Assembly: GCF_000376445.1 (NCBI RefSeq)
Contig: NZ_AQXI01000001.1
Span: forward strand, 1,706,962 to 1,770,961
DNA length: 64,000 nucleotides
Direction of reading: 5' to 3'
DNA from: Haladaptatus paucihalophilus DX253
GTDB taxonomy: Archaea > Halobacteriota > Halobacteria > Halobacteriales > Haladaptataceae
The position numbers and the translations under genes are program-made. The notes below the pieces were generated by a model. It made no database searches. It saw nothing but the letters and a program-made list of their open reading frames with translations, and was not told the origin of the DNA. Shown piece after piece: positions 27,302 through 30,402 of this stretch (the stretch's first letter is position 1; every line of letters begins with the position of its first letter).

Positions 27302-28777
27302 ATGGGAAAGCTCGGTCTCAAAGAGGCAGTAGCGATGGCTGTCGGCGGGATGATCGGAGGTGGTATCTACTCCGCCTTCGGCCTCGTCGTCTCCATCTCG
27401 GGACGCTTATCGTGGATCGCGTTCCTGCTCGCCGGAATCGTGGCACTCAGCGCGGGGTACAGTTACATCAAGATGAACCAGTACGTCGGCGACCGCGGCG
27501 GCGCGCCGACCTATTTTCACGACCTGTTCGGCGACACGATGCTGACGGGGATGGTGGGGTGGACGCTCCTGTTCGGATACATCGTCTCGATGGCGCTGTA
27601 CGCCTACGCGTTCTCGTCGTTCTTCACGAAGCTGTTCGGTCGGCTCGCGTTCAATCAGATACCCATCGCAAATCTGATTTCCATCCTCGTCATCGGGGCG
27701 TTCGTCGGACTCAACCTGATGGGAGCCGGTTCGACCGGCAAAGCCGAGGACTTCCTCACGTTCTTCAAAGTCGCCGTCATCGGCGGCTTCGGAATCTGGG
27801 GCGTTTACTTCGCCGTCACGGGCAACATCTTCCAGCCGGGATTCTACGAGTTCATGCTCAACCCGACCATCGGCATCGCGGACCCGTTCCTCGGCGCGGC
27901 GATGTCGTTCGTGGCGTTTCAGGGCTGGCAGTTGTTGCTGTACGACCAAGATAAGTTCAGCAACCCGGAAGAGACGATTCGGAAAGCCATCTACATCGCC
28001 ATCCCGGTGGCGACCCTGCTGTACGTCCTCGTCGCGTTCACGACGACGAGCATCCTCGAACTGCCCGTCATCATGGTCAGCCCGGAAACGTCGCTGCTGT
28101 ACGCCGCGCTGCCGTTCGCGGGACAGCTCGGAGCGCTCCTCATCGGGTTCTCCGCGCTGTTTTCGACCGCGAGCGCGGTCAACGCGACGCTATTCAGCAG
28201 CGCGCAGTTCTCCCGGGAACTCATCGAAATCGGCGTCCTCCCGGACCTGACCGGCGTGGAAAGCGACGGCGGAGACGGGAGCAGTAGCGAGAGCGGAAGT
28301 GACGGCAGTGACGGGAGCGATAGCAGTGACAGCGACGGCAGCAACAGCGATAGCAGTAATGACAGCAGCAACAGCAACAGTAACAGCGACGACGGAAACA
28401 GCGACGAAAGCAGCGACAGCGACGGGAATCAGATTCCCTCGGGAATCGTCATCGGTCTCGGCGTGCTGTCGATGGCGTTCGCGGTGTACGGGAGCCTGAT
28501 GAGCATCACGACGTTCGCGTCGCTCGCGTTCATCGCCGTCTTCGGCGGCGTGAGCTACGTCGCATACCGGGAACGTGACAACCTCGACATCCATCCGACG
28601 ATACCCGTCGTGGGCACCGTCGGTTGTACGCTCTTCTTCCCGGTGTTGCTGTACGACCTGTACGTGCACAGTTCGTCCACGTTCTGGCTGGTCGTCGTCA
28701 TCGGCCTGCTCGTGGTCGGCTCCGAACTGGTGTACTTCAAATTCGCCGGTGCGCAGACCGGAGGTGCGCAATCATGA
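27302..28777 (+). CDS. APC-superfamily permease with Ser/Asp/Gly insert
   Basis: A 491-residue permease beginning MGKLGLKEAVAMAVGGMIGG; the motif GGMIGGGIYSAFG in helix 1 is typical of APC amino-acid transporters. About 12 transmembrane helices. Between helices near 318 and 377 lies a 57-residue hydrophilic insert made only of Ser, Asp, Gly, Asn and a few Glu. It is coded by repeats of AGCGACGGC/AGCAGTGAC type at about 28258-28431. After the insert the helices resume with QIPSGIVIGLGVLSMAFAVY. The gene overlaps the following substrate-binding protein by 4 bases (ATGA). Substrate is unknown; peptide or amino acid is inferred. Confidence 0.88.
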   Translation: MGKLGLKEAVAMAVGGMIGGGIYSAFGLVVSISGRLSWIAFLLAGIVALSAGYSYIKMNQYVGDRGGAPTYFHDLFGDTMLTGMVGWTLLFGYIVSMALYAYAFSSFFTKLFGRLAFNQIPIANLISILVIGAFVGLNLMGAGSTGKAEDFLTFFKVAVIGGFGIWGVYFAVTGNIFQPGFYEFMLNPTIGIADPFLGAAMSFVAFQGWQLLLYDQDKFSNPEETIRKAIYIAIPVATLLYVLVAFTTTSILELPVIMVSPETSLLYAALPFAGQLGALLIGFSALFSTASAVNATLFSSAQFSRELIEIGVLPDLTGVESDGGDGSSSESGSDGSDGSDSSDSDGSNSDSSNDSSNSNSNSDDGNSDESSDSDGNQIPSGIVIGLGVLSMAFAVYGSLMSITTFASLAFIAVFGGVSYVAYRERDNLDIHPTIPVVGTVGCTLFFPVLLYDLYVHSSSTFWLVVVIGLLVVGSELVYFKFAGAQTGGAQS

Positions 28778-30402
28778 CGAAACACGAGGAAAACGGACTG
28801 ACGCGACGGAAACTGCTTGCATCGCTCGGAATTGCGGGCGCGGGCGCCCTGTCGGGCTGTTCGGCCATCGAACGGGTGTCCGGCGGAAACGGCTCGCAAC
28901 TCCGAATCGCCCAACCGCTCACGGCCACGGTCCTCGACCCCGTGGTCATCGAAAGCGTGCCGTCGGCGCAGGTAGCCACGCAGGTGTTCGAAGGCCTGTA
29001 CACCTACGGCGAGGGGACGACGTTGGAACCCGAACTCGCCGACGGCGAACCGAAGGTGAGCCACGGCGGGACGCGGTACGAGGTGTCGCTGAAGTCGGAA
29101 CCGCGGTTCCAAAACGGAAACCCAGTCACGGCGGAGGACGTGAAATACTCGTTCGAAGCGCCGAGCCACCGGGACGGGAACACGTCGTGGCGGCGGGGGA
29201 CGCCGAACAAGTGGGAGGTGGACATGATAGACACCATCGAGACGCCCGACGACCACACGGTGCGGTTCGAACTGTCGTACCCGTACGACGCCTTCCACGA
29301 GGTGCTCACCCGGGCCGTCGTCCCCAAATCGGCCCGCGACCCCGACCCCGAGACGTTCGCCAAAAACCCGGTCGGCTCCGGGCCGTTTCAGGTGGACCGG
29401 TTCGTGCCCCAGAAGTACGCGATTCTGACGCGCTGGGACGACTACTGGGACTCGCCGAAGGCCGCAATCGACCGGTTGAAGTTCGTCTCGGAGTACTCGG
29501 GGCTGTCGCGGACGATGAGCCTGAAGACGGGGCAAAACCAGCTAGTCGAGGAGGTAGAGCCCCACCTCTGGAAGGCGACGAACGACCAACCGAACGCGAC
29601 CGTGAAATCCAGCGAGAGCTACGATTACACGTTCCTCGGCTTCAACTGCAACGGCGGGCCGACCTCGGAGGAGAAAGTCCGGAAGGCGGTCGATTACTGC
29701 GTCAACTTCGACGAGATGGTGGAGAACATCCTCCGTCCGGCGGGCGAGCGCACGTACAGCCCGCTTCCACACCAGTTGGCCGAGGAGTGGGACATGCCCG
29801 TCAACGAGTGGAAGCGGATACCCAACGAGCGGAACATCGAGAAAGCGCGAACGCTGTTCCGCGACGCGGGCGTCGAGGCGTGGGCACCGAAGATAGCCGT
29901 TCCGGCGTCGAAGAGTTCCGGCGACGAGCTGCTGATGATGATGGCGAACGCCGTAAAGCAGGGGCTGACGCTCGCCGGGTTCCAGCAGGCCAGCGTCGAG
30001 AAGTACTCGTGGTCGGTGTTCCACGACAAAATCGTCTCGGGGTCGCCGAGCGACTACCACATGTTCGTCACGGAGTGGTCGGCGTTTCCCGACCCGGACG
30101 CCTACGTCTATCCCCTGTTCCACCAGCGGGCGGAGGGCGAGACGAACGGCGTGTTCTACAAGAACGACGACGTGATGGAGAAGATACTGAACGCGCGGAA
30201 ATCGGACGTGCACGCGAAGCGGAGGAAACTCTACGAGGAGACCATCACGACCCTGCTGGAGGACCGCGTGCACCTGCCGATATACCAGCCGAAGAACGCC
30301 TTCGGGGTGAAAAAGGACCTCGACGACTTCCAGCTGTCCCCGATGTCGGAGGAGAACCCGCGGTTCGTCGGTTCGGAGTATCGGGTCACGGTCGGCGAGT
30401 AA
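28774..30402 (+). CDS. Oligopeptide-type substrate-binding lipoprotein
   Basis: A protein of 542 residues with a Tat-type lipoprotein signal: TRRKLLASLGIAGAGALSGC, lipobox Cys near residue 29. The mature part matches family 5 extracellular solute-binding proteins, including QPLTATVLDPVVIESVPSAQ, VFEGLYTYGEGTTLEPELAD and KYSFEAPSHRDGN; these usually serve ABC peptide transporters. No ABC ATPase or ABC permease is near. Instead it is translationally coupled (ATGA) to the APC permease upstream. It would be held outside the membrane by its lipid. Confidence 0.9.
   Translation: MTKHEENGLTRRKLLASLGIAGAGALSGCSAIERVSGGNGSQLRIAQPLTATVLDPVVIESVPSAQVATQVFEGLYTYGEGTTLEPELADGEPKVSHGGTRYEVSLKSEPRFQNGNPVTAEDVKYSFEAPSHRDGNTSWRRGTPNKWEVDMIDTIETPDDHTVRFELSYPYDAFHEVLTRAVVPKSARDPDPETFAKNPVGSGPFQVDRFVPQKYAILTRWDDYWDSPKAAIDRLKFVSEYSGLSRTMSLKTGQNQLVEEVEPHLWKATNDQPNATVKSSESYDYTFLGFNCNGGPTSEEKVRKAVDYCVNFDEMVENILRPAGERTYSPLPHQLAEEWDMPVNEWKRIPNERNIEKARTLFRDAGVEAWAPKIAVPASKSSGDELLMMMANAVKQGLTLAGFQQASVEKYSWSVFHDKIVSGSPSDYHMFVTEWSAFPDPDAYVYPLFHQRAEGETNGVFYKNDDVMEKILNARKSDVHAKRRKLYEETITTLLEDRVHLPIYQPKNAFGVKKDLDDFQLSPMSEENPRFVGSEYRVTVGE

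Follow-up and report, generated by a model that had tools for sequence, protein, structure and literature searches.

Transporters of the LeuT fold and the APC superfamily work by alternating access of the rocking-bundle or gated-pore type. To our knowledge, the TRAP and TTT systems were, before 2025, the sole secondary transporters that used a soluble binding protein. In 2025, Jaques et al. described TAXI-GltS of Bordetella pertussis (BP0403-GltS), a binding-protein-dependent secondary transporter that was inferred mainly from gene linkage, i.e., from translational coupling plus fusions (PMC12344293). TRAP, TTT, and TAXI-GltS all appear to be elevators, and the same study asks whether an elevator is required, a question that further classes would test (PMC12344293). 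According to a survey of haloarchaeal genomes, APC permeases commonly have UspA proteins as partners; binding proteins are not mentioned with them there (PMC3102087). Our full-text search of the open-access literature, in which absence is not proof, returned no paper describing an APC permease paired with a binding protein.

Here, we analyse two adjacent genes that encode an APC-family permease and a family-5 solute-binding lipoprotein. They lie in a 64-kb stretch of DNA, called the window below whenever the whole stretch is meant. We think it fairly probable that the two genes specify a single two-component importer, in which the lipoprotein feeds an ion-driven APC permease. The pair stands outside TRAP, TTT, and TAXI-GltS, and its working mode may, by analogy, be similar to theirs. 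Profile searches gave no match to the families of TRAP (DctP/TAXI with DctQ/DctM), of TTT, or of TAXI-GltS, the only matches being to AA_permease, Spore_permease, and SBP_bac_5. What the pair shares with TAXI-GltS is a binding protein that comes from another transporter class and is encoded, and translationally coupled, with an otherwise solitary secondary transporter. The proteins themselves differ: TAXI-GltS joins a TAXI protein to GltS, a proposed elevator for which fusions are known, whereas here a family-5 protein accompanies, unfused, a LeuT-fold APC permease. ATP-independent, binding-protein-dependent uptake as in TRAP and TTT is also the mode that we propose for the pair by analogy, although the binding and membrane proteins of those systems are unrelated to those of the pair and TRAP is an elevator. 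The original prediction had taken TRAP as the known precedent; it is one, but not the sole one, since TTT and, since 2025, TAXI-GltS also exist (PMC12344293).

The gene pair and its surroundings

Both open reading frames, and the four-base overlap through which they had been predicted to be coupled, were confirmed at the following coordinates of the window:

27302..28777, forward strand: APC-family permease, ApcT-like, with about 12 transmembrane (TM) segments (491 aa, PF13520)
28774..30402, forward strand: family-5 extracellular solute-binding lipoprotein (542 aa, PF00496, Tat signal and lipobox)
28774..28777, forward strand: ATGA overlap of the permease stop and the lipoprotein start (4 bases)

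The permease matches the Pfam profile AA_permease_2 (PF13520, E 4e-23) and the lipoprotein matches SBP_bac_5 (PF00496, E 7e-68); the N-terminus of the latter consists of a twin-arginine motif and a lipobox (RRKLLASLGIAGAGALSGC). The neighbouring genes are unrelated to the pair: upstream, on the opposite strand, lies a membrane gene with weak similarity to DUF1440/DUF6789, and downstream lie the genes of thymidylate synthase and dihydrofolate reductase. A whole-genome scan found 98 ABC_tran matches, of which none falls in the 64-kb window and the nearest are about 44 kb upstream and about 45 kb downstream of the pair. The earlier statement that no ABC genes are nearby thus holds, with the closest ABC ATPase some 44 kb off.

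Conservation of the pairing among haloarchaea

We searched each protein separately in the genus, the family, and the order (392 Halobacteriales genomes) and then tested adjacency; outside the Halobacteriales, a pattern-based scan covered the best 80 loci. All 32 members of the permease clade, from 31 genomes and six family-level groups, adjoin a binding protein. Binding protein and permease are thus encoded as a conserved unit (32/32), a feature of the functional class of binding-protein-dependent secondary transporters. Among the carriers are Haladaptatus halobius, Halegenticoccus soli, Haloterrigena salina, Natrialba aegyptia, and Candidatus Halobonum tyrrellensis. The pairs come in two gene orders. 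Those of the window type, with the permease first, adjoin in 9/9 cases (eight genomes, two family-level groups), and their permeases are 63–71% identical to that of the window over the main matched segment. The reverse order, with the binding protein first, accounts for 16 pairs among the best binding-protein matches; when a reverse-order permease is used as the query, that clade grows to 23 genomes, and a binding protein adjoins in 23/23. The next permeases, both haloarchaeal and bacterial, have identities of 53% or lower; the flanks of about 90 were examined, and no homologous binding protein adjoins any of these. The original prediction had proposed to look in other haloarchaea for a pairing that persists in the absence of ABC genes and had named loss of the pairing in relatives as its refutation. 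The pairing persists in 32/32 clade members, 0/25 of the paired binding proteins belong to an ABC operon, and no loss of pairing was seen within the clade; in the genus, the pair is patchy as a unit, being present in 4 of 9 genomes.

The two genes are tightly spaced in both orders. The 16 reverse-order pairs that were measured all overlap by exactly four bases (ATGA or GTGA) if the permease is taken to start at the codon within the overlap; several of these permeases begin with a variable acidic stretch, and homology sets in behind it, some codons downstream. In the window type, the genes overlap by 4 bases at one extreme and are separated by 18 at the other, with 2 or 3 bases at most junctions. 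The existence of two gene orders implies that adjacency either survived a rearrangement or arose twice, and either way a neutral explanation is unlikely. No fusion protein of permease and binding protein was found; open frames of 991 and 998 aa in one genome (G055) were considered as a fusion and rejected, being two different frames in which the genes overlap by GTGA, unfused. When 25 neighbourhoods were compared all against all (permease shadow frames aside), no third gene was conserved in more than 6 of the 25 loci, and the most widespread extra gene family, in at most 6, is limited to close relatives. Since the pairing is kept in 32/32 while no other gene family exceeds 6/25 loci, chance is excluded as its cause.

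A regulator of the bacterio-opsin activator type (BAT/HTH_10) lies near four pairs drawn from both subclades (L079 6216-6941, L081 10184-10858, L141 about 4.0-5.4 kb, L143 9341-10039) and is a candidate regulator.

The trees of the two proteins agree. Paired permeases group together (88/97), the permease and binding-protein trees contain the same two subclades (100/100 each in the permease tree), and the nine window-type pairs show identical branching in both. Pairwise distances of the paired proteins are closely correlated (r = 0.92 overall, 0.88 and 0.93 within the subclades), and 0 of 5000 permutations reach the observed correlation. H. halobius (G003) carries two divergent pairs, whose binding proteins are 51% and whose permeases are 63% identical; in both trees, one copy joins the window pair and the other joins the pairs of L080 and L081. 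Species history as well as co-evolution enters into the agreement of the trees, and only this two-copy genome partly controls for it.

The binding protein and its ABC-linked relatives

The family-5 domain (PF00496) is present in 18/18 paired binding proteins that were checked. A Foldseek search with the AlphaFold model of the lipoprotein returned the family-5 binding-protein fold, with matches to DppA, OppA, NikA, and others, at TM scores that are low because model confidence is moderate (mean pLDDT 66 for the models of both proteins). The lipoprotein had been described as peptide-binding. Its membership of family 5 stands; the ligand need not be a peptide, since nickel, heme, opines, sialic acid, and glutathione are among the ligands of solved relatives in this family. 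Two possible clues to the ligand were set aside: NikA-like and other NCBIfam equivalog models score far under their cut-offs, and the LFH motif occurs in some non-paired relatives as well. The usual substrate classes of the two families (peptides versus amino acids) do not match, which counts against a common importer unless the binding protein takes amino-acid-like ligands.

We classified 73 homologs of the binding protein by their neighbours: 36 are in DppBCDF-type operons, 25 are permease-linked, and 12 are orphans; none is both ABC- and permease-linked. In the maximum-likelihood tree, the 25 permease-linked proteins form a single clade (support 100/100), which has a stem of 0.47 changes per site and is nested among ABC-linked relatives. 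The lipoprotein is 38–45% identical to the latter. It thus groups with the relatives of haloarchaeal DppABCDF/OppABCDF systems, but unlike them the pair has no DppBCDF genes of its own and has lost residues conserved in ABC-linked proteins. P63, D116, T135, P262, R410, G414, and L433 are invariant or nearly so in 28 ABC-linked binding proteins and lost in 23 paired ones, and about 40 positions conserved in the former are lost in the latter. The 23 paired proteins have, in turn, invariant residues peculiar to them, such as W147, H450, M468, and P529. The losses fit a change of partner, although part of them merely reflects the length of the stem.

Two side observations concern other members of the family. 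In the binding protein of Ca. Halobonum tyrrellensis (L125 7691-9247), which belongs to the pair clade, Tyr replaces the lipobox Cys, so that this protein is probably not lipid-anchored; its pairing is nonetheless kept. The orphan lipoproteins (L145, L165-L167, L169, L174, L176, L183-L186, and L190) have neither APC nor ABC genes adjoining at their 12 loci and are conserved mostly in one genus of Halobacteriales.

The most serious rival to a two-component importer is that the lipoprotein serves an ABC importer encoded elsewhere, the permease being co-expressed for amino acids from the imported peptides. We regard this as possible but rather unlikely. ABC importers are the normal partners of family-5 proteins, and MppA, which works with OppBCDF, is a precedent for a binding protein used in trans. 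Partners would also be available in the window's genome: its DppD/F-type ATPases are numerous (30 oligo_HPY matches), and one DppBCDF set (G000:C1:2106-2111 kb; L306 4557-9424) lacks a binding protein of its own. Two congeners without the pair (G002 and G004) have orthologs of that set (74% identical), and none was found in the three other congeners that carry the pair. This failure to track the pair speaks against a dedicated relation and leaves room for a promiscuous one. Also against this rival, 0/25 members of the single clade of paired binding proteins are in an ABC operon of their own, and they have lost the residues that ABC-linked proteins conserve. Near two of the paired loci lies a Dpp-type gene set, which comes with its own binding protein. 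Furthermore, the permease is always accompanied by the lipoprotein, a constancy that co-regulation alone would not demand. As to the DppBCDF set without a binding protein, it is divergent, with DppB on the strand opposite DppCDF, and 35 other genomes encode homologs of its DppC at E <= 1e-90.

The permease and the proposed mechanism

The PF13520 profile and the match of its model to ApcT place the permease in the APC family, with a predicted LeuT-type fold. Its closest solved structure by sequence is ApcT (3gi9, E 1.8e-40), which is also the top PDB match of its model in Foldseek (3gia, TM 0.84 by target length), and PF13520 is present in 18/18 paired permeases checked. ApcT of Methanocaldococcus (MJ0609) is a proton-coupled amino-acid transporter in which a lysine of TM5 takes the place of a sodium ion. 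This residue (Lys158) aligns with Lys156 of the permease, which is invariant in 9/9 window-type permeases and found in stand-alone permeases too, whereas the position is Gln in 16/16 reverse-order permeases; ion coupling may thus differ between the subtypes. The permease therefore resembles ApcT and the stand-alone haloarchaeal APC permeases in fold, in the TM1 (GGGI) and TM6 (aromatic) motifs, which are the same as in stand-alone relatives, and, for the window type, in the TM5 lysine. It differs from the stand-alone permeases in that no binding protein adjoins these.

The permease of the window also has a low-complexity insert of about 60 residues, rich in Ser, Asp, Asn, and Gly, between TM8 and TM9 (residues ~318-376, window 28254-28431), in a loop expected to be on the cytoplasmic side. 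This insert is found in none of the other window-type permeases, and its DNA is a degenerate array of 6- to 15-base units. The L125 permease has an acidic insert at the equivalent position. Elsewhere in the window's genome, permease relatives at G000:C2:325105-326379 and G000:C3:241041-241367 contain an in-frame stop and are possibly decayed copies. A candidate docking surface, made of paired-specific residues at the outer end of TM1 and in EL4 (LLYxxL versus ALAxxxR in stand-alone permeases), was dropped: their enrichment on the outer side was weak and not significant (12/20, Fisher p = 0.10), and a control clade showed no less (p = 0.018).

These features bear on two further rivals. The first is a nutrient sensor or gated receptor, in which the lipoprotein would sense a ligand and modulate the APC-fold protein, somewhat as in spore germinant receptors; we consider it improbable. 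Germinant receptors do join an APC-superfamily GerB to an A subunit that carries a binding-protein fold in its N-terminal domain (PMC13170314), and the permease of the window barely reaches the cut-off of the Pfam profile Spore_permease (E 2.4e-5), a profile that 3 of 18 paired permeases match. Yet the 25 loci share no constant third gene, and neither a GerA-like channel subunit nor a GerC subunit is encoded with the permease. In addition, window-type permeases have the GGGI motif in TM1, the aromatics in TM6, and the TM5 lysine of their stand-alone relatives, which argues for a working transporter. The second, a stabilising ectodomain like 4F2hc or rBAT without ligand hand-over, is about as improbable: the structures that come closest to the permease model do include APC-fold SLC7 transporters in complex with 4F2hc or rBAT, but the paired lipoproteins keep the full family-5 domain (18/18) and invariant residues of their own, which a scaffold would not need, and the stand-alone relatives of the permease manage without a partner. 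Germinant receptors and SLC7-4F2hc resemble the pair in that an APC-fold subunit goes with an additional non-transporter part; they differ in being gated channels or scaffolded transporters that have no family-5 lipoprotein.

The genome evidence supports a functional unit that left the ABC system. Of the binding-protein-dependent APC transporter that had been predicted, the conserved non-ABC unit was thus found, and ligand hand-over is its best explanation; we infer the contact between the two proteins, this hand-over, and the direction, substrate, and ion coupling of transport. In the two-component importer that we favour, the family-5 lipoprotein, anchored to the membrane at the cell surface, would capture a scarce amino acid or a small amino-acid derivative and deliver it to the outward-open APC permease. 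An ion gradient, not ATP, would then power import by the alternating access usual for the LeuT fold; in the window type, the driving ion would probably be the proton, as in ApcT. The binding protein would derive from a DppA-type ABC binding protein that swapped its partner, most simply once and in haloarchaea, after which the pair would have become more widespread and diverse, its gene order changing a single time.

We lean, with some reserve, towards the more specific reading that an ABC-derived family-5 lipoprotein serves a secondary transporter of the LeuT/APC fold, in which case an elevator is not needed for binding-protein-dependent transport. The pair is a direct candidate for testing the elevator requirement raised by Jaques et al. 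(PMC12344293). If the two proteins do work together, they would make up a binding-protein-dependent transporter of a new kind, whose fold is not known to employ a binding protein. This would also mean that binding proteins can pass from ATP-driven to ion-driven transporters, and the annotation of 'orphan' ABC binding proteins in archaeal genomes would change.
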